From Prochlorococcus sp. AG-402-M18 (GTDB lineage Bacteria; Cyanobacteriota; Cyanobacteriia; PCC-6307; Cyanobiaceae), in the NCBI GenBank assembly GCA_003216595.1, contig QCIQ01000009.1, positions 1 to 53,671 of the forward strand: a DNA stretch of 53,671 bases, read 5' to 3'. The notes under the pieces were generated by a model. That model had not been told where the DNA came from. It searched no databases and saw nothing but the letters and a program-made list of their open reading frames with translations. The position numbers were made by a program, and so were the translations under genes. Shown one piece after another: positions 31,488 through 52,268 of this stretch; position 1 is the first letter of the stretch; each line of letters opens with the position of its first letter.

Positions 31488-31561
31488 CGGGGCGTGGCGC
31501 AGCTTGGTAGCGCGGGTGCTTTGGGAGCACTAGGTCGCAGGTTCGAATCCTGTCGCCCCGA
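31488..31561 (+). tRNA. tRNA-Pro (TGG)
   Basis: A 74-nt cloverleaf. The acceptor stem CGGGGCG pairs with CGCCCCG, with discriminator A. The D arm is GCGC/GCGC, the anticodon stem GTGCT with loop TTTGGGA gives anticodon TGG, and the T arm has GTTCGAATC. The gene is the left boundary of the island-like segment described below. Confidence 0.96.
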
Positions 31562-31666
31562 TCAGTCAGAGACAGGTTTCCCAGCCTGTCTTTTTTTATG
31601 GCTATTTTTGTTGAACCCAAAGCTGAACCCAAAAGTTAGATGGAATAAGGGAAGTTAAGGGGTTTT
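31561..31666 (+). repeat. Left copy of the tRNA-Pro flanking repeat (putative att-like site)
   Basis: The sequence from the tRNA discriminator base onwards recurs in degraded form at 52167-52268, in the same orientation. Shared blocks include ATCAGTCAGA, TTTCCCAGC, TTTTGTTGA followed by CCCAAAGC and CAAAAGTT, and TTAAAGGG/TTAAGGGG. The left copy contains the intact terminator of tRNA-Pro. A direct repeat at a tRNA 3' end is a usual trace of integration by a tyrosine recombinase. Confidence 0.65.
31571..31597 (+). terminator. Rho-independent terminator of tRNA-Pro
   Basis: GACAGG and CCTGTC form a 6-bp stem with an 8-nt loop, followed by seven Ts. It lies 9 bp beyond the tRNA. Confidence 0.85.
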
Positions 31667-31718
31667 AACGGACTCAGGAAAATGCTATTAAGATATTGAA
31701 CGTATTTAAAAGTTCAAA

Positions 31719-31863
31719 GTGAAAAAGGTTATTCCATTTAGTTTTTGCTCTTTCAGTTATTGCTGGTCCTTCCCTTGCTTGGGGATGGGGAGAAGGTGGT
31801 TGTTCTAAAGACAAATCAAATCAAGATGCTAAAACTGAGCAAGTAGAAGAAACTGACGCCTAA
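31719..31863 (+). pseudogene. Small secreted protein gene with frameshift in the signal peptide
   Basis: A GTG followed by AAAAAGGTTATT starts a typical signal peptide (VKKVI), but the hydrophobic part HLVFALSVIAGPSLAWGWGE and the mature part (GGCSKDKSNQDAKTEQVEETDA) are in another frame. One extra base around 31733-31735 separates the two halves. No start codon is available in the downstream frame. It probably represents a family of small secreted Prochlorococcus proteins with a GWG.GGCSK signature, inactivated here, unless the extra base is a sequencing error. Confidence 0.55.
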
Positions 31864-31864
31864 G

Positions 31865-31972
31865 TTGGAAAAACAAGTAAAGCTGCCAGAATTTTTAATT
31901 GAATATTTTGCTGGTATAAAAAAGGGAGATTTCTACGAAGAACCAGTTGAAGGAGAATATCCAGATTGGTAG
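31865..31972 (+). CDS. Short ORF (35 aa), TTG start
   Basis: A TTG just after the stop of the preceding frame opens a frame reading LEKQVKLPEFLIEYFAGIKK and ending DFYEEPVEGEYPDW. The composition is protein-like and acidic at the end. No family recognised; support is weak because of the length and start codon. Confidence 0.35.
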   Translation: MEKQVKLPEFLIEYFAGIKKGDFYEEPVEGEYPDW

Positions 31973-31984
31973 TTGCAATGAAAT

Positions 31985-32083
31985 TTGAGTATTAGTGCCG
32001 AGAGCTACAAAAGAGAGTTTGAGCCTTTAATAAAGAAAATTTGGCCCATTCACGAACATGACCAGAAAAGAGTTCATGGATAA
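31985..32083 (+). CDS. Short ORF (32 aa), doubtful
   Basis: TTG-started frame reading LSISAESYKREFEPLIKKIW then PIHEHDQKRVHG. It overlaps the next frame by 26 bp. Protein-like, but not supported by other evidence. Confidence 0.28.
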   Translation: MSISAESYKREFEPLIKKIWPIHEHDQKRVHG

Positions 32084-32174
32084 GTTCTTTGATCTTTGCA
32101 AGGACGCTCAAGAAGAAATCCCACCAAAGGTGATTGCAGAAATTCTCAGAGATTATGCAGATAGGTTGGATTAG
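32058..32174 (+). CDS. Short helical protein (38 aa)
   Basis: The ATG opens a frame MTRKEFMDKFFDLCKDAQEE followed by IPPKVIAEILRDYADRLD. It is an amphipathic helical peptide with balanced charge. It stops immediately before the ATG of the next gene, which argues that both are translated from one message. Confidence 0.5.
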   Translation: MTRKEFMDKFFDLCKDAQEEIPPKVIAEILRDYADRLD

Positions 32175-32441
32175 ATGAAAAAACTCTTTGCTTTCGTTCT
32201 TGGTCTGCTTTTTTTTCTCTGTCCTTTTGCAGTTCAAGCGGAAGATGTTGAGCTAATACCGCAAGAGGAAATAGCTGAAGCACCTGCACATGAACCAATG
32301 TCGGAAGACGCACTTAATTATTTACTGAGTGAGGACATGTATCAAGGCACTCTTTCTTGGCAAGGCAACAAAGCTTCTACCAAATTTAATTACGACAAAC
32401 CAAAAAAAAATAGACAAGAAAGCCCTAGCTCATATGACTGA
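32175..32441 (+). CDS. Secreted protein of an inverted paralogous pair (88 aa)
   Basis: The product has a signal peptide (MKKLFAFVLGLLFFLCPFAVQA) and an acidic mature part with ELIPQEEIAEAP, PMSEDALNYLLSEDMYQG and LSWQGNKASTKFNYD. Nearly the same protein is encoded on the opposite strand at 50088-50330, with about two thirds of residues shared. The start is fixed by direct abutment to the upstream stop. The stop overlaps the start of the next gene by 8 bp. Function unknown; export to the periplasm or lumen is expected. Confidence 0.68.
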   Translation: MKKLFAFVLGLLFFLCPFAVQAEDVELIPQEEIAEAPAHEPMSEDALNYLLSEDMYQGTLSWQGNKASTKFNYDKPKKNRQESPSSYD

Positions 32442-32856
32442 ACCTGAAGTCCATCCAAAGAAATATTTTGACCAAATAGAGGTGTTTGGCTCCATGGAAA
32501 AGCGTTCATGGATCCATGGTCCAAAGTCACCAAAGAGATTCTTTATAAATGAACCAAAATGCCCTGTAAGAAACCCTTTTGACAGAATCGATGGAGTTGT
32601 AAGGGAAGAGGGCATAAAAATGTTTGATAGTTTGGTTTGGCAGAGTTGGCATGAAGATGGAAATATTCCAAAAGCAGCTAAAAAGTGGTTTGAAGCAAGA
32701 GTGAAAGAGTTTAAAGCTGGAACAGATATTGATCTTGTTTGTAATTGTCGAAGATTTAGAGGTCAAGATGATGCTGTAGGTCTACAAGCTAAATACCCTT
32801 GCGATTGTCATGGCTATACATTGAAAAAATATATTGAATTTTTCGCTAACAATTAG
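32434..32856 (+). CDS. DUF4326-like protein
   Basis: From the ATG at 32434 the product has 140 residues. The region NEPKCPVRNPFDR followed by the helical KAAKKWFEARVKEF and then DLVCNCRRF...YPCDCHGYTLKKYIEF resembles the DUF4326 arrangement, in which a conserved Cys and a CxCH pair sit in a small nucleotide-related fold. The family call is from memory. The frame is open for 105 bp further upstream, but the overlap with the preceding gene makes the internal ATG more likely. Confidence 0.55.
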   Translation: MTEPEVHPKKYFDQIEVFGSMEKRSWIHGPKSPKRFFINEPKCPVRNPFDRIDGVVREEGIKMFDSLVWQSWHEDGNIPKAAKKWFEARVKEFKAGTDIDLVCNCRRFRGQDDAVGLQAKYPCDCHGYTLKKYIEFFANN

Positions 32857-32925
32857 GAAGATATTTTTTCCCTATTCTTCAAGCCATAATTCAGAGCCTG
32901 ACAGTTAAAGGTCTATAAAGCTCTC

Positions 32926-33408
32926 TTACAGAAAAGAGGGATCTAAAAGCGATGGTCGATAAGAAAGCACAAATGGACGATGCTCGCTTTTAACTGCCAC
33001 AATCACATCTTCTCCCGTATGCCAAATCCATTGTTGTTGAGGAGAGCCACCTTCGACATCAACACTTGTACCAACTGGAGGACCAAAACGATACCTTAAT
33101 CCTGCCAAAACTTCAGTCATGTTTTCATTGTCTATTTCATAAGCAAGTTGCTTTAATCCATCCTCATTTTCAATTCGAACTCGAAGAACATCGACAGGTA
33201 ATCCACTGATCTGAATATCTTTAACCTCAAAAAGATTCTGGGTAGTTTCTTCTTTGATGGGACTGAAAGATATACCAAGATGGCTCTCTACATTTTGAAG
33301 GTCCATCCCCCACGTCAAACCCTCAACACATGCAAATACTGGCTGAGAGATCAGTTGGGTAAGAAAAAGAAAAACAATTAAAACTAGGGATCTATATAGT
33401 TTTTGCAT
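32926..33408 (-). CDS. Secreted protein, unknown function (160 aa)
   Basis: A signal peptide (LVLIVFLFLTQLISQPVFAC) is followed by a beta-rich domain: VEGLTWGMDLQNVESHLG, LPVDVLRVRIENEDGLKQLAYEI, and YRFGPPVGTSVDVEGG with a QQQWIWHTGEDVIVAV strand. The opening resembles secreted proteins with a GLTWGM..Q.VE motif that compare a computed profile, but I do not recognise the function. One Cys immediately after the signal could be a lipidation or disulfide residue. Confidence 0.6.
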   Translation of the reverse strand: MQKLYRSLVLIVFLFLTQLISQPVFACVEGLTWGMDLQNVESHLGISFSPIKEETTQNLFEVKDIQISGLPVDVLRVRIENEDGLKQLAYEIDNENMTEVLAGLRYRFGPPVGTSVDVEGGSPQQQWIWHTGEDVIVAVKSEHRPFVLSYRPSLLDPSFL

Positions 33409-33479
33409 TTATATCTAAAGAAAACTGTCTAATAATTAAAGGTTAATCCACTTGGAATGAATTAAAAGTCTTGTGTTAA

Positions 33480-33671
33480 TTAAGCCATAGACCACCGCCT
33501 AGCAGTAGTAGGACTTACACCGTAAATATCAGCAATCTTTTTCCAGCTCCATCCATAGGAGCGATAGCGATTAATTCTTGTTCTCTTAGTTTCTAATGCC
33601 CAGAGAAAGAGCATTACAGGAAGGAACAGTGCGACACAAAGCCACACCATTACGCAGGTAAAAGATGTCAT
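33480..33671 (-). CDS. Membrane-anchored HTH microprotein, intact family member
   Basis: A 63-residue product with one N-terminal membrane helix (VMVWLCVALFLPVMLFLWAL) and a C-terminal helix-turn-helix-like segment WKKIADIYGVSPTTARRWSM, the style of resolvase or LuxR-type DNA-binding helices. Degraded copies lie at 41343-41440 and 53579-53640. A membrane-tethered DNA-binding domain this short is unusual; it could also be a truncated recombinase end. Confidence 0.55.
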   Translation of the reverse strand: MTSFTCVMVWLCVALFLPVMLFLWALETKRTRINRYRSYGWSWKKIADIYGVSPTTARRWSMA

Positions 33672-33743
33672 TAGTTTTTAAAAATGCTTTAATGCCGAGT
33701 GAGAACCAACAAGCCCTGCGACTTCGACTCTCGGATTCTATTA

Positions 33744-34136
33744 ATGAAAATAAAAACAATCCTAAAAGCTGTTGGATCTCTTCACTTGTTATTGGGTGTA
33801 CTGCTAATAAACCTGTTGATTTTTTCTATTGATACCATTGCCCCATCAGTCTCAGCAGAAACATTGTTATTTATTAGAGGGACAGCAGATGTTGTTGCAG
33901 CAACAAATATAGGTATTGGCTTCTTATTAATAATTGCTAGTTCCATCAGAGATCACGAATCTGCCAAGAAAGTTTTACTAGGTGAATTGGTATTGATGCT
34001 TTGCCTCTTAATAGTTGCAGTATTCAATACTCTTAATGCAGGAGTCATTGTTGATGCTGGTCCACCTCCACCGTTTTGGATTGTTCTAATTGCAAACCCA
34101 GTTTTGTGTACTTATGGATTACAAAAAGGGAAATAA
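33744..34136 (+). CDS. Membrane protein, unknown function (130 aa)
   Basis: From ATG at 33744 the product has four hydrophobic segments (LHLLLGVLLINLLIFSI, ETLLFIRGTADVVAATNIGIGFLLIIASSI, VLLGELVLMLCLLIVAVF, FWIVLIANPVLCTYGL). The frame is open for 45 bp upstream, beginning with a GTG, but the ATG gives a clean MKIKTILKAVGS start. The next gene begins one base after its stop, so they are cotranscribed. Confidence 0.6.
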   Translation: MKIKTILKAVGSLHLLLGVLLINLLIFSIDTIAPSVSAETLLFIRGTADVVAATNIGIGFLLIIASSIRDHESAKKVLLGELVLMLCLLIVAVFNTLNAGVIVDAGPPPPFWIVLIANPVLCTYGLQKGK

Positions 34137-34418
34137 ATGAACCGTTTAAATGATTTAAGAGTTTTATTTCATAGCTTTTTTAATAGGCAAGCACCTCAAA
34201 AAAGACAAATGAAAAGGGTTTTTCAATGGAGAAGGTATCTTGAATGGAAAGATTTAACTCCTGAAGAAAAGCTCTCAGCTAAACGATTTTTATTAGTACC
34301 AATATTTGCCTATCTAATAATTGGGATCTTTAATCAGAACTTTTTATTGATTGTTCTACTCTTGATTGGATATGTACTTTATAAGAAACTTGAAAAAGGA
34401 GGCATTGTAAAAAAATAA
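34137..34418 (+). CDS. Small membrane protein (93 aa)
   Basis: A basic N-terminal half (LRVLFHSFFNRQAPQKRQMKRVFQWRRYLEW) is followed by two adjacent membrane helices (FLLVPIFAYLIIGIFN and FLLIVLLLIGYVLY) and a basic tail. Its ATG directly follows the stop of the upstream gene. Function unknown. Confidence 0.55.
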   Translation: MNRLNDLRVLFHSFFNRQAPQKRQMKRVFQWRRYLEWKDLTPEEKLSAKRFLLVPIFAYLIIGIFNQNFLLIVLLLIGYVLYKKLEKGGIVKK

Positions 34419-34420
34419 AA

Positions 34421-34600
34421 ATGAAACGCTTTTTACTACCTGCCCTGATCTACTACAACAAAACTATTTTGATCGGCCAGAAAGTAAATATTGAATTTGA
34501 TCTTGACCCAGTTACTTCAGAAGAGGTGGATATGAGATTAGTCCCGTGGGAAGAGCAAGAAACTCATATTAGAGAAACTATCTACGGGCTATTTTTCTAG
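34421..34600 (+). CDS. Small protein (59 aa), unknown function
   Basis: ATG at 34421, 2 bp after the upstream stop, opens a 59-codon frame: a short hydrophobic start (MKRFLLPALIYYNKTILIG) and then an acidic part EEVDMRLVPWEEQETHIR. The start MKRFLLPAL resembles that of the 25-codon frame at 40440 (MKLFLLLAL). It lies 3 bp before the next ATG, so it belongs to the same run of genes (33744 to 34828). Confidence 0.5.
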   Translation: MKRFLLPALIYYNKTILIGQKVNIEFDLDPVTSEEVDMRLVPWEEQETHIRETIYGLFF

Positions 34601-34603
34601 GCA

Positions 34604-34828
34604 ATGTCTGAGCTGTACTTCACTAAGGAAAAAAGTGATGCATTTAGAAAAGAATTTGAGAGATTCAGACGTAAGAGGCTTAAAGAAAGGAATCAGCTGC
34701 TGCGTTCCTCAGAGGTAAAGAAAACAGATCAAAGCTTTGTAGAGGAAACAGCAAATAAAATCAAAAGGAAAACCATGGAAAGAAATAGGAAAATGCTAGA
34801 GAGGATATTTAGATACAGATCAACCTAG
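34604..34828 (+). CDS. Charged helical protein (74 aa)
   Basis: A strongly basic, helix-forming product (SDAFRKEFERFRRKRLKERNQLLRSS ... ETANKIKRKTMERNRKMLERIF). It may be a coiled coil or nucleic-acid-binding peptide by charge. It ends the run of four abutting plus-strand genes. No family recognised. Confidence 0.5.
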   Translation: MSELYFTKEKSDAFRKEFERFRRKRLKERNQLLRSSEVKKTDQSFVEETANKIKRKTMERNRKMLERIFRYRST

Positions 34829-34960
34829 GTAGCTACACTTTTTCGGCGATATAGGAGAAGCCTTGTTTCGATAAGGTAAGAAATTTTATCAAGAACTCTT
34901 AACCCCTTGCATATCAATCAATTTTTTTAAATCAAATTAATTAGCGCATTAAAGAACTAC

Positions 34961-34999
34961 TTGACAACACCCTCATACCGTTGCTAGTACATGTGTACT
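34961..34999 (+). promoter_or_regulatory. Promoter with LexA (SOS) box
   Basis: A perfect -35 TTGACA at 34961-34966 is followed after 18 bp by the -10-like TAGTAC at 34985-34990. The segment AGTACATGTGTACT at 34986-34999 covers the -10. It fits the cyanobacterial LexA-box consensus RGTACNNNDGTWCB, and its arms AGTACA/TGTACT are perfectly complementary. LexA binding there would block the promoter, so the gene downstream is probably induced by DNA damage. Confidence 0.72.
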
Positions 35000-35093
35000 G
35001 CTACAAGCGTATGGCTCCAACGTCCTCACCCTATGCCGTTTTTCGTGCATCAGATTGGAATTCAGTGGTAGCAGAACCTATTGGATTAAGGCA

Positions 35094-35375
35094 ATGTCTT
35101 CGTATCGAACCCAAAAAGTTTTACCCCAGAAGCGTTACAACCCAGCTGAGGAGTGGGACTATCTCGAAGAAGACACTCTTAAACACACACGTTCAGCTAG
35201 CGTTTGCATGACATGTCAACATTTCAATTATTGCTGCGACAGGCATTGCAGAACAATTCTTACCTGTCATCTCCATCAACGTCTTATACCTCATGGAGAT
35301 CATCTAACATCAAAATGTCAGTGTTGGATGCAGCGACTCGAGAGAAAGATTGGATGGTGTCCCGAGGCTGCTTAG
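35094..35375 (+). CDS. Cysteine-rich protein under a putative LexA promoter (93 aa)
   Basis: The product reads MSSYRTQKVLPQKRYNPAEE at the start and then has a Cys/His-rich core: CMTCQHFNYCCDRHC, CHLHQRLIPHGDHLTSKCQCW, with eleven Cys in all. This spacing suggests one or two zinc sites. The ATG at 35094 is used because the frame is open further upstream only with a non-ATG start. The leader from the promoter is about 90-100 nt. Function unknown; with the SOS-type promoter, a DNA-damage role is a reasonable hypothesis. Confidence 0.6.
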   Translation: MSSYRTQKVLPQKRYNPAEEWDYLEEDTLKHTRSASVCMTCQHFNYCCDRHCRTILTCHLHQRLIPHGDHLTSKCQCWMQRLERKIGWCPEAA

Positions 35376-35438
35376 ACTTCTGAGATGTAAGGAGTAAAGA
35401 ATGCAGGAGAAGTCTTTCCCGCGATCTTTTTATTGTTT

Positions 35439-35861
35439 TCAGTAATCTATTTTGGATTGTCTGCTCTTCTTTAGTTCACCTCTTTTCTTCTTTGACTCAA
35501 CCCTTTTCCTCTTAGATGAGCGTGTTGGTGTTGTCTCCCTTCTCTTCTTTGGAGGTGGCTTTAATATCTCTCGTAAGATTGAAGCAAGCCTGATTAAAGC
35601 CAGTTGTCTGTTCTGATATTGAGTTCTCTTATCCTGAACAGCTATACAAATACATCCATTGGTTAACTTAACTTCATCCTGAATTGAGATCCTATGCTTC
35701 TGATATGGAGTTAATGTTCTTGATTCAGATACGTTAAATACAATTTCAACTCGACTGTCTGTCTTGTTTGCGTTCTGTCCACCTGCTCCTGATGATCTAG
35801 AGAATCTCCACTGTATTTCGTTGACTGGTATTTCAAGCTTAGAATTAATCGTTAGATTCAT
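35439..35861 (-). CDS. arfB: Alternative ribosome-rescue factor ArfB (YaeJ-like)
   Basis: ArfB is a codon-independent peptidyl-tRNA hydrolase that rescues stalled ribosomes. The product of 140 residues starts with the class-I release factor core, WRFSRSSGAGGQNANKTDSRVE, with the catalytic GGQ at 27-29, and ends in the long basic tail typical of ArfB (RSSKRKRVESKKKRGELKKSRQSK). There are no codon-recognition domains. The length and tail fit ArfB better than PrfA or PrfB. It is a solitary gene in the island-like segment. Confidence 0.88.
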   Translation of the reverse strand: MNLTINSKLEIPVNEIQWRFSRSSGAGGQNANKTDSRVEIVFNVSESRTLTPYQKHRISIQDEVKLTNGCICIAVQDKRTQYQNRQLALIRLASILREILKPPPKKRRETTPTRSSKRKRVESKKKRGELKKSRQSKIDY

Positions 35862-35910
35862 TTGTCTTTTTAATTTTTCTCGTCATAACTTTTAGAGACT
35901 TCAACATTAT

Positions 35911-36075
35911 TTATGAGTAATAACGATCAGCCATCTCTTTGAGCATTTTTCTGATGTGCTCATCTTTGGCATTAGTTTCTTCTTTTAATTTCTCACATGC
36001 ACCTTTAACTTGCATCCAAACTGCTTCCATCACTTCCCGTTCTTCTTCTGTAGGTTTCCACTTAGATGATTCCAT
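35911..36075 (-). CDS. Small helical acidic/basic protein (54 aa)
   Basis: MESSKWKPTEEEREVMEAVW then a helical WMQVKGACEKLKEETNAKDEHI end. The ATG at 36075 lies within a longer open frame but gives the most plausible start. It is divergent from the 36114 gene, 38 bp apart. Not recognised. Confidence 0.5.
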   Translation of the reverse strand: MESSKWKPTEEEREVMEAVWMQVKGACEKLKEETNAKDEHIRKMLKEMADRYYS

Positions 36076-36113
36076 GCAAGAGATAATAATAGAAATTGAA
36101 CTCTTAAAACTCA

Positions 36114-36266
36114 ATGAAAAGTAGATCAGAAATATTAGATGAGATCATGTTCTATATCCTTGAACGTGCCAAGTGCGAAGAATACACTGACAAGTACCTT
36201 GAGCATGTGCTCGATTACTGCAAGAAGGATTACCAAAAAGTTTACGACAAGAAGAAGGAAGATTAG
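36114..36266 (+). CDS. Small charged protein (50 aa)
   Basis: ATG opens a frame MKSRSEILDEIMFYILERAK ... EYTDKYLEHVLDYCKKDYQK with an Lys/Asp-rich end. The helical, balanced composition suggests a real protein. Its stop overlaps the 3' end of the convergent 36263 gene by 4 bp. Confidence 0.5.
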   Translation: MKSRSEILDEIMFYILERAKCEEYTDKYLEHVLDYCKKDYQKVYDKKKED

Positions 36267-36427
36267 TCATCTCTTACCTTCTTCAGCCAATAGGGAATAA
36301 AAGTCTTTTCCTTCTTCGCTGAATCATATAGATAATCAGATGTACTTTCTAATAAAGCTGCAAGAGTTATTCGCACGCTAGGGAAAGTAAGACCAAAAAG
36401 AATAGCAATCAAAAAGATTATTTTCAC
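36263..36427 (-). CDS. Small membrane protein (54 aa), GTG start
   Basis: Starts at GTG and reads VKIIFLIAILFGLTFPSVRI then TLAALLESTSDYLYDSAKKE and KTFIPYWLKKVRDD. An N-terminal hydrophobic segment is followed by a polar C-terminus with YDSAKKEK. It is the last gene of a run of six small minus-strand genes from 37276 down to 36263. Confidence 0.45.
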   Translation of the reverse strand: MKIIFLIAILFGLTFPSVRITLAALLESTSDYLYDSAKKEKTFIPYWLKKVRDD

Positions 36428-36457
36428 TTGTTCATTTCTGTGAATCTAATTGGTTCA

Positions 36458-36643
36458 TCACCAAAATTTTCTTTTACCAGTCCAGTTATACAACAACCAA
36501 ATCACAAATCCAACCATAAACAACGGCATAAAACTATCGAGCAGTAAATAGGCTGAATAAACAATTAAAGGAAAAAACATTACACGTTTAATATTTAGAC
36601 GTCTACCTCTTGATGTTCTTCTCCATAGTTTTATAAAAGGCAT
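36458..36643 (-). CDS. Small membrane protein (61 aa)
   Basis: MPFIKLWRRTSRGRRLNIKR (basic) followed by two hydrophobic segments VMFFPLIVYSAYLLLDSF and LFMVGFVIWLLYNW and a basic end. Part of the minus-strand small-gene run; 5 bp after the stop of the 36649 gene. Confidence 0.55.
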   Translation of the reverse strand: MPFIKLWRRTSRGRRLNIKRVMFFPLIVYSAYLLLDSFMPLFMVGFVIWLLYNWTGKRKFW

Positions 36644-36648
36644 ATATT

Positions 36649-36858
36649 CTATTCCTGTTTAGTAGGGGATAATCTATCGATTTTAGCTTGTTGATTTTTT
36701 AGTTTTTCTTTTTCTATTTTTGCAGCTCCATAAGTACTCCTAACGCTAAAAGTTATAAAGATTGCATTAATGGCTCCAACGATAATAATCCCTACAATAA
36801 TTTTATTAATCCCCTCAGGAGAACTTAGATATTCCAATAGGACTTCTTGATTAAACAT
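36649..36858 (-). CDS. Small membrane protein (69 aa)
   Basis: A product with EYLSSPEGINKIIVGIIIVGAINAIFITF (one membrane helix) and a charged tail (AAKIEKEKLKNQQAKIDRLSPTKQE). It starts right next to the stop of the 36859 gene. Not recognised. Confidence 0.55.
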   Translation of the reverse strand: MFNQEVLLEYLSSPEGINKIIVGIIIVGAINAIFITFSVRSTYGAAKIEKEKLKNQQAKIDRLSPTKQE

Positions 36859-36999
36859 TTAGTGAACAATCAATCTTTCTAGTAATAGAGCTACAAATAC
36901 TCCTTTAAAAAAGACAAGCCAAAGTAATCCATAATCAGTCAGACCAAGCTTCTTTTTATACCAAGCAATTAGTTGCTTATGCTTGTCTATAAGTTTCAT
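36859..36999 (-). CDS. Small membrane-associated protein (46 aa)
   Basis: MKLIDKHKQLIAWYKKKLGL then TDYGLLWLVFFKGVFVALLL with a short end. A basic amphipathic start precedes one membrane helix. Its ATG overlaps the stop of the 36996 gene (ATGA overlap), a sign of translational coupling. Confidence 0.55.
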   Translation of the reverse strand: MKLIDKHKQLIAWYKKKLGLTDYGLLWLVFFKGVFVALLLERLIVH

Positions 37000-37169
37000 T
37001 CTTTTATCTCAATAATTTCATAATAGGGACGGTCCCCATAATCAGCATCAGAACAACAAACATCGGAATAAATTTCTTCTAATAGATCGTATGCCTCGTC
37101 ATAGCTGTTGAAAGATTGCTGAGTAATTTCGTCAGATTCTTTATCTTGTCTAACGATTTTATAAATCAT
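36996..37169 (-). CDS. Small acidic soluble protein (57 aa)
   Basis: MIYKIVRQDKESDEITQQSF then NSYDEAYDLLEEIYSDVCCS and YYEIIEIKE. It is acidic with a CC pair and no membrane segment. Its stop overlaps the start of the next gene by 4 bp. Not recognised. Confidence 0.55.
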   Translation of the reverse strand: MIYKIVRQDKESDEITQQSFNSYDEAYDLLEEIYSDVCCSDADYGDRPYYEIIEIKE

Positions 37170-37180
37170 GGCGAGATTGA

Positions 37181-37276
37181 TTAGCTTGATAAAAGAGTTC
37201 CGAACAATCCCGCAAAGGCAGAAAGGACAAAAATTGCAACGATACCGATTGCAATAACTTTAGATATGTTTTTCAT
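37181..37276 (-). CDS. Very short membrane protein (31 aa)
   Basis: MKNISKVIAIGIVAIFVLSA then FAGLFGTLLSS: one Gly/Ala-rich membrane helix. First gene of the minus-strand small-gene run, 11 bp upstream of the 57-residue protein. Confidence 0.5.
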   Translation of the reverse strand: MKNISKVIAIGIVAIFVLSAFAGLFGTLLSS

Positions 37277-37300
37277 CTGATTTGATAGTGCTTACCTAGT

Positions 37301-37576
37301 TTAACCACCGAATTGATAATGCTTACGGACTGCCTTATGAACATCCCATCTACAGTCCATTCCAGCTGGGAAGACAACTAAGTCTCCTGCACCAAACTTT
37401 ACGGCTTCTCCCCCCTCAGGAGTGACTGTGACTTCACCCTCAAGCAACAAACAAGTCTCTTTATCGTCATAAGTCCAATCAAAAGAGCTTGCTTCACAAG
37501 TCCAGATTGGCCAGCTTTTAATCCCTAGTTCCTCAATAGTGATCTCAGGACAAGGAGAAGTTACTGATATAGACAA
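37301..37576 (-). CDS. Cupin-domain protein (DUF861/EutQ-like)
   Basis: A 91-residue cupin with IWTCEASSFDWTYDDKETCLLLEGEVTVTPEGGEAVKFGAGDLVVFPAGMDCRW. The pattern WxxxExxxxWxYxxxExxxxLEGEVxV...FxxGDxVxxPxG matches the EutQ-type cupins of DUF861, which lack some metal-binding His residues. A small-molecule-binding or lyase function is possible. It lies 24 bp upstream of the small-gene run on the same strand. Confidence 0.8.
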   Translation of the reverse strand: MSISVTSPCPEITIEELGIKSWPIWTCEASSFDWTYDDKETCLLLEGEVTVTPEGGEAVKFGAGDLVVFPAGMDCRWDVHKAVRKHYQFGG

Positions 37577-37751
37577 GAGGTGAAAATCTAGTGAACTTCT
37601 TTTTAGCTTCTCTTGGAAACAGTTGTCTATAGCTAATTAAATTTTTAGCAAAAATGTCTGAAACCTAATTACGTATAAATCGAGGACACAACGCCCCCAT
37701 AGAGGGAGGTGATATAGAGAGAACCAATGAAGTTTCAATGCTTCCCTTACA

Positions 37752-38015: not shown

Positions 38016-38083
38016 TTAAGCCATGAAACCATTAAAAAGTATTAGATTAAATTCACAAAATAAACGTCTATCGTTTCAGGAAA

Positions 38084-43695: not shown

Positions 43696-43743
43696 TTATC
43701 AACTTGAGGATGTTGAGTAAGCATAAATTTTCGGTAGTCTCTT

Positions 43744-45184: not shown

Positions 45185-45193
45185 AAATAAAAA

Positions 45194-45893: not shown

Positions 45894-46076
45894 ATGAATC
45901 TTGGATTACTTTTTCTCGAATCTGTTTCGACTGGAGTGATTACTTCAGAAGAGATGAATTGGGTCACATCTAATCAGCCTAATTTTTCTCGAGTTGAAGA
46001 AGCGACTGCTTTGAAACTAGGTCGTCTACTGGATCAAGGCTTAATTCAAATTGGTTGTCGTATTGCTTACAATTAA
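45894..46076 (+). CDS. Small protein (60 aa), unknown function
   Basis: MNLGLLFLESVSTGVITSEE followed by MNWVTSNQPNFSRVEEATAL and KLGRLLDQGLIQIGCRIAYN. Amphipathic and soluble. A hairpin with T-run follows 119 bp later. It has the look of a conserved Prochlorococcus small protein. Confidence 0.55.
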   Translation: MNLGLLFLESVSTGVITSEEMNWVTSNQPNFSRVEEATALKLGRLLDQGLIQIGCRIAYN

Positions 46077-46194
46077 ACATTCAATCGATTACCAAAAATC
46101 GAATTAAATCCTCTGAAGCTTTTGAAACAGCTTTGATTGATTGACGGGCTTTATATTGATGTCTATCATTTTTTCATCGCTGGGTGATGCTACT

Positions 46195-46219
46195 AGCTCT
46201 TTGTATAGGGGCTTTTTTT
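46195..46219 (+). terminator. Rho-independent terminator
   Basis: AGCTC pairs with GGGCT (one G-U), 9-nt loop, followed by seven Ts. Confidence 0.6.
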
Positions 46220-46317
46220 ATTGAGGAAATATTTTTAGAGACACATAAGTTCCTGAACTTCATTAAGTAATTCCATAAGGAAGAGATCTTTTCTGTCGCT
46301 GTTTATAATCCGATGAC

Positions 46318-46560
46318 CTATAAATGCTTAGCACCATAATCGGCAATATCTACAGAGATAGGATCATTAACACCAAGTTCCTGCGATAGCTCCTTCATAA
46401 ATCCTCTTGCCTCATCCAAGTGTTCAATCGTTTTTGGTCTTGCACTAACGAGTGCAGCTTTACTTTCCCAAAGTTCTACAAAACAAAAAACTATCTTCTC
46501 CTGTTTGTGCAATCTATTTGTCTGACAATTCTTCGCAAATAGAATTCCCTATGGATTTCA
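46318..46560 (-). pseudogene. N-terminally truncated ABM-like gene
   Basis: The frame reads RLHKQEKIVFCFVELWESKAALVSARPKTIEHLDEARGFMKEL, the second half of an ABM domain (compare LCFVWSELYKNDEAFLAHL in the intact gene at 44287). The expected first beta strand and helix are missing. The frame is open back to a TAG near 46560 without a credible start other than a TTG at 46512. It is probably a decayed copy. Confidence 0.5.
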
Positions 46561-46633
46561 GAAAATTAATCTACGCATTGAGGCTTCAACTTTAAACGAA
46601 CAACGTTCATGAATTATGGTGCTGTCATTTCTA

Positions 46634-46755
46634 TCAACCTGCCAGGTAACTGCTAATAGCGATTGAATTATATGTAACCAGTAGGTTGATTGGTTTCTCT
46701 ACTTGCTTCAAAAAAAGCTTTTCAATACCCTTTTCTGCTTACTGGATCAAAACAC
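46634..46755 (-). pseudogene. Degraded 3' end of a DUF3764-like gene
   Basis: The three frames together spell VLIQ, stop, AEKGIEKLF, then FEASRETNQPTGYI and NSIAISSYLAG with stop. These align with VVIHQAEEGVAKAFFEQSREAVEATGHIYDSTVITSYLAG of the gene at 47601. At least two frameshifts and one stop codon show it is dead. Confidence 0.7.
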
Positions 46756-46925
46756 AAGAATTGAACACTATCTCTCCTATGACTGGAACTGAAGAAAATA
46801 GCAAATATTTACTCTCAGCCAACTACTCTGAAGAAGTGTAGGGGAATAATTGTCCCTTTAGTTCGCCTCGAAGTTGGTGGTTAACCTTAATCATGCTGCC
46901 TCTATCTTTTCAGATTCTATTTTTT

Positions 46926-47114
46926 TTAACCTCTATTTTTTTCAACCTCTGTTTTTATTGAATTGGTTTTTTTATAAAAAGCTGATTTATCCTGTCCGGA
47001 CTTAAAAAGGAAAAAAGTTGGTAAAGCTAATAAAACAGCTATAGCTGTTAGAAGAATAAGATTAATGGTGAAGCTACTGACTCCTAGCGCGGAAGACATT
47101 AAAGCTAAAATCAT
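46926..47114 (-). CDS. Small membrane protein of a three-member family
   Basis: A 62-residue paralog of the protein at 40628: MILALMSSALGVSSFTINLI then LLTAIAVLLALPTFFLFKSG and a Lys/Glu-rich tail. About two thirds of residues are shared, with the same helix and start. It is in the opposite orientation to the 40628 copy. Confidence 0.6.
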   Translation of the reverse strand: MILALMSSALGVSSFTINLILLTAIAVLLALPTFFLFKSGQDKSAFYKKTNSIKTEVEKNRG

Positions 47115-47331
47115 TCAGATAGAATTAAATCAATTTATTATCAAATTAAATCCAAAAAAATTCTAATCTAAAAAAACGAGACAATTTACAGCAAGAAAAT
47201 AAAAAAAACTATTTCCAGTAGTGCTATTAAGCACATAGGTTTGTAGCCAATAGATGTTAAAAACCAGCGCTTAGGGCGAGTAACCCAAAGCGGTTCACTT
47301 ATTCACCTAATTTTAAAAAATAAAAAATAAT

Positions 47332-47595
47332 CTATAAAGGTCCTTCAAGCTTATAAACAATATCTTTGCAGTTGTTTGCTTTGTCCCATTCTCTAGCGAA
47401 AGGATTATCAAGGATTTTTGAAAAAGCTTCTAAGCTTGTGACGTTATAGAAAGAGTGTGATTTATGGTCATTGATTTTGTTTAAGTCATAGTCAATCACA
47501 ACTCCATCTCCATATCCCTTGACAAACTTTTCAATCGTTTCTTCGTAGTACTCAAAGGAGCAGTCAAAAGTACATACAATAAAGAGATTTTCCAT
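47332..47595 (-). CDS. Small soluble protein (87 aa)
   Basis: MENLFIVCTFDCSFEYYEET then IEKFVKGYGDGVVIDYDLNK and SLEAFSKILDNPFAREWDKANNCKDIVYKLEGPL. A small alpha/beta-barrel-like pattern similar in size to its DUF3764-like neighbour. Starts 5 bp after that gene's stop, so the two are likely cotranscribed. Function unknown. Confidence 0.6.
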   Translation of the reverse strand: MENLFIVCTFDCSFEYYEETIEKFVKGYGDGVVIDYDLNKINDHKSHSFYNVTSLEAFSKILDNPFAREWDKANNCKDIVYKLEGPL

Positions 47596-47600
47596 TTCTT

Positions 47601-47879
47601 TTAACCTGCTAAGTAACTGGTAATAACGGTTGAATCATATATATGACCTGTAGCTTCAACAGCTTCTCTACTTTGTTCAAAAAACGCTTTTGCAACACCC
47701 TCTTCTGCTTGATGGATCACGACAACTGATTCAGGATCATCTTTTCTAACCCCTCTGTATAAAGGTTTTATTGCGTTAGCCTCGTGCATTGCAACAACCT
47801 CTGCACTATCAAAACCCTTAGCCCAATCTATAAAAGGAACAGAAATCTTGAAAGTAAATACTGTGGTCTCCAGTGCCAT
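47601..47879 (-). CDS. DUF3764-like protein
   Basis: A 92-residue protein starting MALETTVFTFKISVPFIDWA, then KGFDSAEVVAMHEANAIKPL, YRGVRKDDPESVVVIHQAEEGVAKAFFEQ and a C-terminal STVITSYLAG. It matches my memory of DUF3764, a small family of marine picocyanobacteria. ATG at 47879 preferred over TTG at 47894. A decayed copy lies at 46634-46755. Confidence 0.68.
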   Translation of the reverse strand: MALETTVFTFKISVPFIDWAKGFDSAEVVAMHEANAIKPLYRGVRKDDPESVVVIHQAEEGVAKAFFEQSREAVEATGHIYDSTVITSYLAG

Positions 47880-48749
47880 CCAAAATGAATACAAGTCATC
47901 AGATCATCGCATATATCTTCTAGTTTTCTAGACTGAAGGCCACCTCTTCAGGCTTTTCAAACAAAAGCATTTCTGAAGCTATGACTTTTACATGCGCTTT
48001 CGCATTGCTTTGTCCCGTGCTTATGATTTTTACTAATGCTTTTTATCTGGACATAAGATATTAAGAAAACAACAATTAATAGGTACAGAAGTTATTGCTG
48101 GGCCAGGTGCAAGATTACAAAAATCTATGGGGTTAGCCTTACTGCTGTTAGTCGATTATCTATGACCTAGAAAGTTTATGTATAGCCTTATCAGATTTTT
48201 TTAAAATTTTTAGAGCCTCTTTTCATGATTTACAAGGATCCGCTTTAGCTTGAAGTTTTAAAAGTTTGGCGTGTTGTTTCTCTAAGTTCATCCAACATTG
48301 GATAAAAACGAAGGTAGAAAACTAATAGCTTTAGGTCCTAACCGAGGAAATCTGATTCGTAGGGTCATCTAATTCGTATATTTTGAGTTATGCAATAGAT
48401 AACCCCGTATTTTAAGAGGAGTCTGTCTAACTTTAATAGTTACTTAATGCTCCAAATTGAAGTCTCGAAGTGAATGGTTAAGTCCTGTATGAAGTAGAAA
48501 ATGCAGAGCTTAGCTTTGTTTATCAAGAAGGACTACCTTTAATAAATTTGTGAGTAAAGGGACAGGATTTCGACGACTGTCACCTTCTCTAATTTGAGCT
48601 TGAACGCAACCTTTTTTAATAGGAGTTACTCGCTATAGCGTGAAAATCTAAAAAGAATTCTTAAAAACTGATGTTCGGTTGTGGTTGGGTTTTCCTACTC
48701 CCTTCTTACTAGTGAGAGGAGTAGACCAAAGGTGTAGCAAGGAGGGCTT
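47880..48749. other. Spacer with gene remnants
   Basis: No intact gene is supported. Contents: a GCC/GGC hairpin with T-run at about 47938-47962; a 42-codon fragment at 48037-48165 without a start, reading LSGHKILRKQQLIGTEVIAG and on to LLLLVDYL, protein-like but unidentified; the TGA-broken small gene at 48160-48291; and a CTACTCC/GGAGTAG hairpin at about 48697-48725. It looks like a graveyard of short genes. Confidence 0.5.
48160..48291 (-). pseudogene. Small protein gene with an in-frame TGA
   Basis: From ATG at 48291 the frame reads MNLEKQHAKLLKLQAKADPC, KS, then TGA (48223-48225), and continues KEALKILKKSDKAIHKLSRS to a TAG. The two halves form one amphipathic Lys-rich protein of 43 codons of the kind common in Prochlorococcus (LEKQ.AKL.KLQ.KA...). 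A CGA or AGA to TGA change would explain the stop. Confidence 0.5.
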
Positions 48750-48902
48750 ATGAAACTCTTTACTCCTTTCACCATTCCTCAAAAAGACAATTGCGATCTT
48801 TGCAGGATCAAAACTAATATAAGAAAAGAAGTTGAAAATCCATTATTAGATCAACTATTTAAATTCATTTACAGGGATAATTTTGATTTCGTTTTCGACT
48901 GA
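48750..48902 (+). CDS. CxxC microprotein (50 aa), copy 1
   Basis: ATG at 48750 is preceded by a strong ribosome-binding site AAGGAGGG. The product is MKLFTPFTIPQKDNCDLCRI and then KTNIRKEVENPLLDQLFKFI with an acidic end. The CDLC motif suggests a metal or redox site. A shorter paralog lies at 51784 with the same upstream sequence (CAAGGAGGG). Confidence 0.6.
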   Translation: MKLFTPFTIPQKDNCDLCRIKTNIRKEVENPLLDQLFKFIYRDNFDFVFD

Positions 48903-48984
48903 TCTTGGTCTATAAAAATGAAGATTATCCAAGGCAAGATAAACATTGATGTTCTATGGCCAAAATAGTAACGGAGGATTTGAA

Positions 48985-49512
48985 ATGCTTTTAAATTTCG
49001 TTCCTACTCACATTTTCCGTGAAACACCTCAAGTATCGTTCTTCGATGCAGGAGTAAAAGGATCCAATGGCTCTGATGTAGTCATTCATCACGGCAATGC
49101 AATTTCACCCCCAAACGATGGTGATTTTGAGCAGTATTACGTACATCGACACCAAATTGATCACAATTTAGTCATCCAAGGTAGTCGTATTTTTACTTTG
49201 ATCAATCCTGAATGGGATGAACCTCATCACATCATTTATTTAAATCGTGCCATGGGTGCACTTCAAATTCCTGTCGGAACATTTCATCGATCAATCTCTA
49301 ATCATGAAGGAAGTATTGTTCTAAACCAAGCTATAAGAGATGAAAAATTTAATCCTAAAAATGAATTTACACCTGTTAGCTTAAGAGACAGAAAAGATTT
49401 ACAAGAAACTCAAAAGAAAAATCCTGTTTACTGGGTTTGGGAAAAAGATCAAATCAAAAGGATTAAGCTAAATCCAATTCAATCTAAGGAAAAAGTTTTA
49501 AATAAATTTTAG
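48985..49512 (+). CDS. Cupin-like protein (175 aa)
   Basis: The ATG at 48985 has a GGAGG 7 bp upstream, which decides the start; the frame is open further upstream. The product starts MLLNFVPTHIFRETPQVSFF and contains a jelly-roll like segment VIHHGNAISPPNDGDFEQYYVHRHQIDHNLVIQGSRIFTLINPEWDEPHHIIYL, with an HxH pair and an IPVGTFHRSIS strand. This fits an RmlC-type cupin without clear enzyme residues. A terminator follows. Confidence 0.65.
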   Translation: MLLNFVPTHIFRETPQVSFFDAGVKGSNGSDVVIHHGNAISPPNDGDFEQYYVHRHQIDHNLVIQGSRIFTLINPEWDEPHHIIYLNRAMGALQIPVGTFHRSISNHEGSIVLNQAIRDEKFNPKNEFTPVSLRDRKDLQETQKKNPVYWVWEKDQIKRIKLNPIQSKEKVLNKF

Positions 49513-49609
49513 GGAAATCTAAGAGCAAATTTAAAATCCAATATAAGCTCAACTCCTATGAATGAAAGTAATATTAGTTGATAGCTAATTACCCATCTAA
49601 CCAACTGGG

Positions 49610-49633
49610 GCTGACTTAGGTCAGCTTTTTTTA
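49610..49633 (+). terminator. Rho-independent terminator
   Basis: GCTGAC/GTCAGC stem with TTAG loop and eight following Ts, ending the cupin gene. Confidence 0.82.
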
Positions 49634-49819
49634 TTTTTTGTTCTTCCTGCTTTCTCTAGCATTTGAATCGTTTTCTAATGTTGTATTAATCAAACCTTGG
49701 AAGTCGCCAAAGGCAGAAGCAATACCAAACATCACGACAAAACTTAAACCAGCAACAATCGTTACAATCCAAGTACCTGTTCCCATATTGAGTGGTATTG
49801 CAAATAAAGGACTAGGCAT
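49631..49819 (-). CDS. Small membrane protein (62 aa)
   Basis: MPSPLFAIPLNMGTGTWIVT then IVAGLSFVVMFGIASAFGDF and a polar tail LINTTLENDSNARESRKNKK. One or two hydrophobic segments with Gly-rich spacing. It converges with the cupin gene; the terminator probably serves both. Confidence 0.58.
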   Translation of the reverse strand: MPSPLFAIPLNMGTGTWIVTIVAGLSFVVMFGIASAFGDFQGLINTTLENDSNARESRKNKK

Positions 49820-49863
49820 AAAAAATCAATTACTAATAAAACACCTTAAAGAGTTTTGGATAT

Positions 49864-50087
49864 TTAACGGTTCCTTCTGTAAATAAAGAAATAAACAATC
49901 CAAAATACAGCTAGGTAAATCAAGAAAACTGCTATTAGGTTTAAACCGCCACCGATACAAATTTTAGTCCTAAAGGAATTGCAGCAAAAATTATCCCATA
50001 TCCAATAATCCGATTGAAAACTCCCCAGCTTCGGAAGTACCAAGACAGGGCAAATCCAATGAAAATTAAAACTGCGAATATTGCCTT
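49864..50087 (-). pseudogene. Frameshifted membrane protein fragment
   Basis: Directly after the TAG of the 50088 gene the same frame continues KAIFAVLIFIGFALSWYFRS WGVFNRIIGYGIIFAAIPLGLK, then breaks; another frame continues ICIGGGLNLIAVFLIYLAVF WIVYFFIYRRNR to TAA. The two halves make a 70-75 residue protein with two or three helices but no start codon. A single frameshift around 49955-49965 separates them. Confidence 0.55.
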
Positions 50088-50330
50088 CTATCTTTTTTCC
50101 TTTTTCATATCGTAGTTAAATTTGGTAGAAGCTTTGTTGCCTTGCCAACTAAGATTGCCTTGATAAATGTCCTCACCCAATAAATAATTAAGTGCCTCTT
50201 CAGACATCGGATCAAGTGGAGATGCTTCAGCTATTTCCTCTTGGGGCATTAGCTCAACATATTGCGCTTGAACTTCAAAAGGATAGAAAAATAAAAGAAG
50301 ACCAAGAACAAAAGAAAAGAGATTTTTCAT
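50088..50330 (-). CDS. Secreted protein of an inverted paralogous pair (80 aa)
   Basis: A signal peptide (MKNLFSFVLGLLLFFYPFEVQA) and acidic mature part with ELMPQEEIAEASPLDPMSEEALNYLLGEDIYQGNLSWQGNKAS. It is a close paralog of 32175-32441, from which it differs mainly near the C-terminus. Same general size, opposite orientation. Function unknown; exported. Confidence 0.66.
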   Translation of the reverse strand: MKNLFSFVLGLLLFFYPFEVQAQYVELMPQEEIAEASPLDPMSEEALNYLLGEDIYQGNLSWQGNKASTKFNYDMKKEKR

Positions 50331-50817
50331 TGCTTTTCTGAGAGTTCCATATTGATGAGAAATTTTATGTTTTTTCGATTGGTGCCATTGTTAATCCTTT
50401 GCTTATGATATAGCTCTGCCTGTTCAAGGTGGCCTCTCCATACTTGCGCCGAACTTTACCTATCTACTTCCACGACAAGTTCCCATGATCTTTTTCACTC
50501 ATCCCTGGGATGATTGCCACAAGATAATTGGCAACATTTTCATATGTATAAAATTATCATCAAGAACTATGATCCTTGCTTCTTGATATTTTCTTTTTGT
50601 TGTCTTTGGATTTAAGACTGTGGTAGTTGAATCAGTAATTCGATTCATGAAAATTAGGGCCAATGCTCCCAAGATAAATCAACTTTTAACCTAGTTTTCC
50701 CCTTACCTGCTAGGGCGTTGACGACAAGGCAAATTGATTACCTTCTCAACATCTTCTCCTTAAAAAAACATCCTTATTTAAAAAACTGTGGTCTAATAAA
50801 TTTTTATAATTTTATTG
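50331..50817. other. Spacer with one weak ORF
   Basis: No firm gene. On the minus strand a 49-codon frame lies at 50499-50648 (listed separately). The rest has no recognisable features; a short C/G-rich patch at about 50400-50520 might carry a remnant. Confidence 0.4.
50499..50648 (-). CDS. Short ORF (49 aa), uncertain
   Basis: ATG at 50648 opens MNRITDSTTTVLNPKTTKRK then YQEARIIVLDDNFIHMKMLP with a TGA stop; after the TGA the frame is open for further codons. The N-terminal half is polar and Thr-rich. It may be an intact short gene or one cut by a TGA. Confidence 0.33.
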   Translation of the reverse strand: MNRITDSTTTVLNPKTTKRKYQEARIIVLDDNFIHMKMLPIILWQSSQG

Positions 50818-51120
50818 ATGCAAACTTACGTAATTCATTGGCAGTTCCCTAATCAAGAAGCACATATAAAAGGCTGTGATGCATTTGCTGAATATCTTGA
50901 AGGCGGTGCTGAGTATGACAAATTTGAAGGTTTTGAGGTCGTTCTTAGAGTCGTAAATCCTGAGGGGGCGAACGGATGGGAAATCGTTAAAGCATCAGAC
51001 CATAAAGCTGTTTGGAAATCTTGTCATCCTTGGTGTGCTGGATTTGGCGTTGATATTGAAGTTGTTCCAGTACTTACAGATAGTGAGTTCTTAGAGGTTC
51101 ACAACGAAATTAAGTCGTAA
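50818..51120 (+). CDS. DUF3303-like ferredoxin-fold protein, copy 2
   Basis: A 100-residue protein starting MQTYVIHWQFPNQEAHIKGC, then DAFAEYLEGGAEYDKFEGFE and a C-terminal VVPVLTDSEFLEVHNEIKS. It has the same strand and helix order as the 23292 protein. ATG at 50818 is preferred over a TTG one codon upstream. Function unknown. Confidence 0.7.
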   Translation: MQTYVIHWQFPNQEAHIKGCDAFAEYLEGGAEYDKFEGFEVVLRVVNPEGANGWEIVKASDHKAVWKSCHPWCAGFGVDIEVVPVLTDSEFLEVHNEIKS

Positions 51121-51135
51121 AACTTACTGAGCGAA

Positions 51136-51215
51136 TAGGAAGGGGGCATTAAGCCCCCTAATAAATCAACTGTAAATCGAGCTTTCACATTAACTGTCAG
51201 ACGGTGGTCTATTTC
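51136..51215 (-). repeat. Dispersed terminator-bearing repeat, copy R2
   Basis: On the minus strand: TAGACCACCGTCTGACAGTT, AATGTGAAAGCTC, GATTTACAGTTGATTTAT, and a GGGGGC/GCCCCC hairpin (stem arms 51142-51147 and 51153-51158). It matches R1 (40847-40922) over most of its length in the opposite orientation. Its first 16-18 bases also resemble the 3' end of the HTH microprotein gene. Confidence 0.65.
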
Positions 51216-51255
51216 TTAAACAAGTGTTTGTATAAGCGGAAAGGCTTCGACAATT

Positions 51256-51502
51256 TTGTGTAATTTATTTTTTCTTTCTTTAGTTGCATTTCTAACTGGA
51301 TGCACCAATGGTGTGCTGTGACTCTACACCCGACGGATTCTCGATGCCAGTAAAAGCAATGGATTCTACCTGTGAAGGAATAATGCCATAAGCACATCAA
51401 ATTTATTGTGATACGGGTGAACACCCTGATCTCTGTTACTGCTATGAGGTGATCGAGCTAAGTAATTTTCTTTATGGACAAATGGTTATCGTTTTCGCTT
51501 GA
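51256..51502 (+). pseudogene. Frameshifted lipoprotein-like gene
   Basis: A TTG opens a signal-peptide-like frame with CNLFFLSLVAFLTGC and lipobox LTGC; it stops at TGA (51319-51321). In the +1 frame a Cys-rich sequence follows: VCCDSTPDGFSMPVKAMDSTCEGIMP, a TAA, then AHQIYCDTGEHPDLCYCYEV. The Cys pattern in the second frame looks selected. One frameshift and one stop break the gene. Confidence 0.5.
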
Positions 51503-51528
51503 GTGGCTTATATATCCTCACTTCGACT

Positions 51529-51693
51529 ATGGATTCTTTTTCCAAAGAGACTCATAGGTATGCTTTCGCAATGGTTAAGGCAGCAAGGACAATGCCTGTT
51601 GATATGGCTGAAAAACTACACCATATAAAGCAATTAAGGTTCAATGTTCAATTAAAGGAATTAAGAAAAAGAATCAATAGAAGGATTACATAG
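51529..51693 (+). CDS. Small basic helical protein (54 aa)
   Basis: MDSFSKETHRYAFAMVKAAR followed by TMPVDMAEKLHHIKQLRFNV and QLKELRKRINRRIT. The frame extends 30 bp upstream with a TTG, but the ATG at 51529 gives a coherent start. Not recognised. Confidence 0.5.
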   Translation: MDSFSKETHRYAFAMVKAARTMPVDMAEKLHHIKQLRFNVQLKELRKRINRRIT

Positions 51694-51783
51694 AAATTAA
51701 CTTTTTGTTCAACTTTTTTAGTGTTCTCCTCCTCCTAATAATCAAAAAGAAAGGTTACCCCAAAGCTGCAGCAAGGAGGGTTT

Positions 51784-51873
51784 TTGAAAATATTTACTCC
51801 ATTCAGTATCCCCAAAAAGGGTAATTGCGACCTTTGCAGGGTTATGAAAACTACTACGAAGAGCGGCAAATAA
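51784..51873 (+). CDS. CxxC microprotein (29 aa), copy 2
   Basis: A TTG start follows AAGGAGGG at the proper distance. The product is MKIFTPFSIPKKGNCDLCRV then MKTTTKSGK. The first 20 residues nearly match the protein at 48750, after which it is cut short by a stop. It is either a truncated copy or a separately kept short form. Confidence 0.52.
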   Translation: MKIFTPFSIPKKGNCDLCRVMKTTTKSGK

Positions 51874-52166
51874 CCTCTCTTTTTTATTGCTGTTCTGCTG
51901 CGAAAATGTATTGGATGAAGCGACAGCCTAAAAATATCTGCGATAAAAACCAAGAGTTACCACTCCACAATGACTATTGAACTTAAGGTTTCTTCGTCCT
52001 TGATAACTTTTGGTGTGAGTGTGCTTATCTTTTTGGAATAGCTACAATTTTTAACTATCTAAGCAGCAACTCTTTAACTAGTAGTGAGGTCTCATTAGAT
52101 GCACTAGTTAGATCTTTCGTTTTGAATCTGTAATAGCTCAAAAGATGAGTATCTTATTTATGTTCC

Positions 52167-52268
52167 ATCAGTCAGATAATGCTTTCCCAGCTTGTTTTTT
52201 TATTGAAAACTTTTGTTGACCCCAAAGCAGAATTCAAAAGTTTTGGGATAAGATAAATTAAAGGGTTC
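52167..52268 (+). repeat. Right copy of the tRNA-Pro flanking repeat (putative att-like site)
   Basis: Contains ATCAGTCAGA, then TTTCCCAGC, TTTTGTTGA followed by CCCCAAAGC and CAAAAGTT, and ATTAAAGGGTT, in the same order and orientation as 31561-31666. The terminator arms have decayed (GATAATG and CTTGTT instead of GACAGG and CCTGTC). Upstream there is no intact tRNA-Pro end. It is a degraded direct repeat at the right side of the island-like segment. Confidence 0.62.

Follow-up and report, generated by a model that had tools for sequence, protein, structure and literature searches.

The stretch of DNA analyzed here (referred to as the window) is the whole of contig QCIQ01000009.1 of Prochlorococcus sp. 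AG-402-M18, 53,671 nucleotides in length, and our analysis concerns an intact tRNA-Pro gene in it, the island of short genes that follows this tRNA, and a direct repeat found in two copies at the tRNA and near 52.2 kb. The features discussed are collected in Table 1. At gathering scores, Rfam found only two tRNAs between positions 22000 and 53671. The repeat pair (31561-31664 and 52167-52267) lies in the same orientation and shows 77% identity over 104 columns. It starts at the final base of tRNA-Pro and covers the terminator hairpin and the sequence beyond. The local score of the pair is 105, as compared to a maximum of 35 among 5278 other window segments on both strands, and a maximum of 42 in 10,000 dinucleotide shuffles, none of which reached 105. 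At E 0.05, the window yielded no further copy. An earlier, sequence-only reading of this DNA had noted that the sequence after tRNA-Pro recurs near 52.2 kb in the same orientation and had proposed a permutation test of the similarity; both the recurrence and its standing in such a test are borne out. Upstream of the distal copy, a degenerate tRNA remnant was considered and rejected, as its score was reached in 393 of 5000 shuffles. Positions 52040-52143 match the locus of one relative, where no tRNA was seen in the compared piece.

Table 1 Features of the tRNA-Pro locus in the window.
Feature	Position	Strand	Evidence
tRNA-Pro (TGG), intact	31488..31561	+	ARAGORN; Rfam; upstream flank common to relatives
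Anticodon stem-loop GTGC-TTTGGGA-GCAC, inferred recombination core	31516..31530	+	Fragment start and end positions
Proximal repeat copy (R1): tRNA terminator hairpin and the intergenic sequence after it	31561..31664	+	Alignment
Mosaic island interior: short genes, diverged duplicates, second Psb28 paralogue, ArfB	31665..52143	.	
Tyrosine recombinase C-terminal remnant, 80 aa, motif Y-S-F-R-H	37752..37994	-	Similarity to relatives' frames
Junction, point where the distal copy misses the tRNA-Pro 3' half	52144..52166	+	
Distal repeat copy (R2), upstream of the DUF1330 gene, without tRNA 3' half	52167..52268	+	Alignments
DUF1330 gene, next after R2	52330..52623	+	Pfam PF07045, E 1.7e-19
Further island-type sequence to the contig end	52624..53671	.	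Homologues scattered in relatives' islands

The gene content of the island was assessed by scanning 20 of its open reading frames with Pfam, 10 with PHROGs and 12 with NCBIfam, and this should be kept in mind when referring to the matches. The named families include ArfB, a second Psb28, DUF1330, DUF3303, DUF3764, a cupin, an ABM-domain protein and a lipase-like protein. Weak PHROGs matches were obtained to integrase (43429-43695, E 7.6e-4), to transposase and RNase E (both at 33480-33671, E 0.0013 and E 1.7e-4, respectively) and to endolysin (39152-39853, E 1.9e-4), while replication, capsid and conjugation families gave no match among the island frames scanned. The recombinase remnant has no Pfam match and a weak NCBIfam match to GmtY (E 0.0036). 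It shares 76-79% identity with the C-terminus of an intact open frame of 461 residues that starts, in the relative G007, 167 bases from a tRNA-Pro fragment. The presence of such a remnant between the repeat copies, and of duplicates (diverged, as it turns out), had already been recognized in the sequence-only reading.

To place the locus among its relatives, the tRNA-Pro region and the distal region were used as queries against 41 genomes of the same genus, our own among them. In named records, the tRNA-Pro motif was found in 25 stretches, all of them from Prochlorococcus. As partial matches, we considered those that begin after tRNA position 20; full copies, 5' halves, one decayed copy and one tRNA paralogue were left out. 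Among the matches listed, 68 of 91 begin at positions 28-33, that is, in the anticodon stem or loop, and at least 28 of the 41 genomes (our own not among them) contain a fragment beginning at or before position 33. Among the listed fragments that begin there or earlier, 49 end at 107-123, approximately at the terminator end, and 11 at 170-191. A tRNA-Pro 5' half is found in at least eight of the 41 genomes, ending at positions 41-42 in seven and at 46 in one. Judged by coordinates, the listed 5' halves always lie upstream of the full tRNA, from which they are separated by 0-2 open frames of at least 100 residues in the seven cases examined. As the part common to the 3' fragments and the 5' halves is the anticodon arm GTGC-TTTGGGA-GCAC, this arm is the likely crossover site. 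Simple repeats aside, the tRNA-Pro terminator is the most frequent 14-mer in the 496 kb of island sequence taken from ten genomes, with 18 occurrences in eight of them; when a shared motif at cassette boundaries was sought, no other non-simple 14-mer reached this number. The ends of recurrent blocks often coincide with gene ends, as judged by eye.

Some side observations concern the tRNA-Pro gene and its 5' halves. In the window, an open frame (31494-31658, + strand) crosses tRNA-Pro, and in G014 (L069 15640-16527) this read-through frame extends to a 295-residue frame that matches the adenylation domain of NAD-dependent DNA ligase; the tRNA part of the frame is probably a false start. In G005 (L086 14560-16170), the interval from the 5' half to the full tRNA contains a gene whose product resembles a pilin-type protein extended by a long C-terminal part, and in G007 (L092 3940-7420) a pair of such genes is situated between a decayed full-length copy and a 5' half, the pilin-type assignment being made in both cases by reading the sequence, with no family search behind it.

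The fragments were then considered together with recombinase genes. After leaving out our own genome and removing repeats by 90-base context, the fetched loci comprised 48 3' fragments, 21 full copies (one of them only 78% identical) and seven 5' halves, with at least 1 kb of upstream sequence at hand for 45, 19 and 5 of these, respectively. A homologue of the G014 recombinase is found within 2.5 kb upstream of 21 of the 48 fragments, always on the opposite strand and with its start towards the fragment; as the loci were chosen by their tRNA match, this is a comparison within the set and not a census. The genes involved are 19 distinct ones, with two of the 21 fragments sharing a gene with a nearer fragment. 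Within the same distance, no homologue was found downstream of the fragments, nor on either side of the 21 full copies or the seven 5' halves, and it is this control on both sides that supports the fragment-plus-recombinase arrangement. Of 16 recombinase places looked up, 15 gave intact open frames of 405-462 residues (the one of G014 having 462) with 23-90% mutual identity, all of which present Y-[ST]-[FL]-R-H at the position of the H-x-x-R-H motif that is typical of tyrosine recombinases. When one recombinase was compared to solved structures, the two matches obtained (E 0.029 and 0.035) were weak. In G014, a candidate whole element of approximately 29.6 kb reaches from a tRNA-Pro fragment to the full tRNA and contains a recombinase, a VapE-like helicase, other helicases and a match to a type IIG restriction enzyme. 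PADLOC was run on seven proteins of one relative's element.

The tails found after the tRNA or its fragments are of two types: R1, as at the tRNA of the window and also in G031, G038, G003 and G002, and R2, which leads to the DUF1330 gene as at 52 kb. The relatives contain 20 copies of the DUF1330 gene in 18 genomes. Seven of these copies are preceded by a tRNA-Pro 3' half (G003, G012, G014, G017, G021, G028 and G033), which starts at positions 28-31 in six cases and at 38 in one; two are preceded by a full tRNA (G001 and G020), and four by a match that starts only at 75-83 (G018, G031, G038 and the second copy of G001). In the junction alignment, the tail differs in G033, G020 and G006, and G031 and G038 have lost the tRNA half at a different point than the window.

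G001 deserves separate attention, as here the full tRNA-Pro leads directly to R2 and DUF1330, and the 5.15 kb of contig downstream hold 6.9% of the window interior. The sequence-only reading had suggested looking for an empty site, in which tRNA-Pro is followed directly by the sequence found right of 52268, and such a junction does exist in G001, although not as a clean empty site, because contig C3 bears another DUF1330 copy, this one with a truncated tRNA-terminator match, and because the tRNA-side copy looks chimeric. The left part of the tRNA-side copy is 96% identical to the R1 of G038, 91% to that of G003, 88% to that of the window and 72-75% to those of G031 and G002, as compared to 71-79% for six R2s. 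The right part is 94-97% identical to the R2s of G031 and G038, 78% to the R2 of the window and 35-53% to R1s. From these identities the copy looks like a chimera of the R1 and R2 types, with the reservation that two of the R1s do not fit. Recombination may have emptied the site at this junction, the direction of the change not being decidable here, and the second DUF1330 copy weakens this empty-site point only.

The extent of the island was also considered. The sequence-only reading had set the right border at 52268 and had taken the two copies as the ends of one 20.6-kb element, and neither proposal could be upheld. As the contig ends at 53671 and the sequence right of the distal copy has homologues in the islands of relatives, 52268 is not shown to be an island end, and the island appears to run past the window. 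Furthermore, in G031, where R1 adjoins the tRNA, R2 follows at a distance of 6.0 kb, and in G003, where R1 lies at an internal fragment, the distance is 25.4 kb; these intervals hold 14.8% and 7.3%, respectively, of the 20,463 interior bases of the window, with 11.1% (in the 4.2 kb fetched from G031) and 26.5% (in the 55.5 kb fetched from G003) found beyond R2. Both copies thus stand apart in genomes that lack most of the interior, and by the first refuting condition that the sequence-only reading itself had set, the simple reading of them as island ends fails. Gene order is likewise scrambled: as compared to six genomes, 8 of 130 neighboring homologous blocks in the island keep their order and orientation, versus 4 of 6 in the upstream flank of the tRNA, the latter count being small on account of the limits of the fetched stretches. 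We were unable to locate the far flank of the island: a 20-kb piece of G003 found 11 short matches in our own genome, and one of 20 kb from G004 matched contigs C18, C8, C9 and others, with the order on C18 unlike that of G004.

Apart from these comparisons, several observations on the interior can be mentioned. As compared to G014 (L067 4831-7892), the blocks 37988-39089 and 39159-40481 appear in swapped order, resembling a circular permutation (37988-40481). The second Psb28 paralogue lies at 40078-40434 (+ strand); a second full-length Psb28 copy is found in 10 of the 41 genomes, each of which has another copy elsewhere, and in eight of the ten it lies on a contig that also bears tRNA-Pro or a fragment, two such contigs being whole chromosomes. 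The frame at 48946-49512 (+ strand) matches PHROG 9052, labeled hemagglutinin (E 1.1e-55). A 90-base stretch occurs three times, at 33480-33671, 41353-41442 and 53543-53632, and in the first of these it forms the end of a small helix-turn-helix gene with a weak match to an IS630 transposase (E 0.0015).

Taken together, we propose, with a probability of roughly 0.75, that the locus belongs to an integration hotspot at tRNA-Pro, with the tRNA gene as the presumed target, and that the repeat copies are old attachment scars in a scrambled mosaic island. The hotspot is best read as tycheposon-like, because the 3' halves start in the anticodon arm, because recombinases adjoin the fragments and because DUF1330 copies follow tRNA halves. 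In such a process, tyrosine recombinases would cut and rejoin DNA in the tRNA-Pro anticodon loop. The tRNA would stay whole because the arriving element brings its own tRNA 3' half and terminator, and the displaced 3' half would land at the far end beside the recombinase gene, an arrangement that is seen in the relatives and whose origin we infer. Repeated arrivals and losses, together with homologous recombination between scars, could have built and scrambled the island, as the comparison of genomes suggests. In the window, the proximal copy would then belong to the living tRNA and the distal copy would be an old displaced scar that later lost its tRNA half; the 20.6 kb between them would be a mosaic and not one element, from which the responsible recombinases have presumably disappeared except for the 80-residue remnant.

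Several points weigh against this proposal and should be considered. The distal copy in the window has neither the tRNA half nor an adjoining recombinase, the recombinase remnant has no adjoining attachment fragment, and a search of the interior (31665-52143) revealed no other tRNA-Pro fragment at E 0.05. Among the relatives, 27 of the 48 fragments have no recombinase homologue near them, and seven of the 20 DUF1330 copies have no tRNA-Pro match in the flank examined (G005, G006, G009, G011, G016, G034 and the second copy of G020). The chimeric appearance of the G001 copy is more in line with homologous recombination or conversion within the repeat than with a clean site-specific excision, and no integration or excision event was observed.

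A distal copy that holds only the region after the tRNA, as in the window and likewise in G018, G031, G038 and the second copy of G001, is also what one would see if the tRNA terminator and intergenic region had simply been duplicated and carried elsewhere, by homologous recombination or together with DUF1330, with no recombinase involved, and the point inside the repeat at which the G001 tRNA-side copy looks chimeric agrees with this as well. The 3' halves present at the junctions of seven relatives count against such a duplication, because halves of this kind are expected of integration in the anticodon arm, and we consider it unlikely. Even less probable is that one 20.6-kb element entered at tRNA-Pro and decayed in place, with the copies as its left and right attachment sites (attL and attR). 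The direct orientation of the pair at a tRNA, the direct tRNA-to-DUF1330 junction in G001 and the remnant inside the interval would fit such an element, but the intervals in G031 and G003 differ in length and content, with other parts of the interior beyond R2, the gene order is scrambled, and G001 has both the chimeric-looking copy and the second DUF1330 copy. From the earlier proposal of an element that entered at the tRNA and then decayed, the anchoring at tRNA-Pro, integration at a tRNA and the decayed repeats are thus retained, while the single element is not. It is also conceivable, if doubtful, that the tRNA-Pro fragments are standing recombination sites for many divergent recombinases and that the island behaves like a cassette array. 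Single genes would then enter, leave, invert and change places at scattered cores of tRNA-Pro, and activity would be expected to either side of the tRNA; 5' halves separated by 0-2 genes from the full tRNA do occur.

The hotspot reading can be compared to known systems. Tycheposons were reportedly described by Hackl et al. in 2023, and are said to present a tRNA fragment at the other border, replication or helper genes, and a recombinase of a deep-branching clade. In our case, a tRNA gene lies at one border (tRNA-Pro, 31488-31561), and an above-chance direct repeat of the tRNA 3' region, a feature of tRNA-anchored islands, is present. In contrast to tycheposons, the window has no tRNA fragment at the far border, where the repeat lacks any tRNA part; it has an 80-residue remnant in place of an intact tyrosine recombinase, and its interior is mosaic. 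Pfam revealed no replication or helper gene among the 20 frames scanned; the candidate element of G014 includes a VapE-like helicase. The likeness to tRNA-linked islands of Prochlorococcus proposed in the sequence-only reading is supported. According to an excerpt of PMC10872708, tycheposons share with this locus their occurrence in Prochlorococcus, the anchoring at a tRNA, the tyrosine recombinase (here intact in relatives) and the cargo islands; they are also treated in the available part of PMC10654061. The same excerpt of PMC10872708 describes an additive island at tRNA-Lys in Methylophilaceae that resembles the tRNA-Pro locus in its recurring short tRNA 3' repeats and in its variable genes, mostly of unknown function, although its repeats are of 20 bases, while those found here comprise approximately 46 bases of tRNA and the terminator. 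In Prochlorococcus MIT9313, the tRNA-Met island holds five pseudo-tRNA-Met genes (PMC2784084, in excerpt) and is similar in having several partial tRNA copies in a hypervariable island beside the tRNA; it differs in the tRNA concerned, in its degraded transposases and in a match to a siphovirus attachment site, whereas the fragments in our relatives adjoin recombinase genes. Islands carry much of the ecological variety of Prochlorococcus, as stated in part of PMC2518516. The kind of island is already known and this copy of it is new; as compared to the systems above, it shows how far such an island can be scrambled, yields a precise candidate crossover site in the tRNA-Pro anticodon arm and draws attention to 19 recombinase genes of relatives that adjoin their presumed sites and lend themselves to direct testing.

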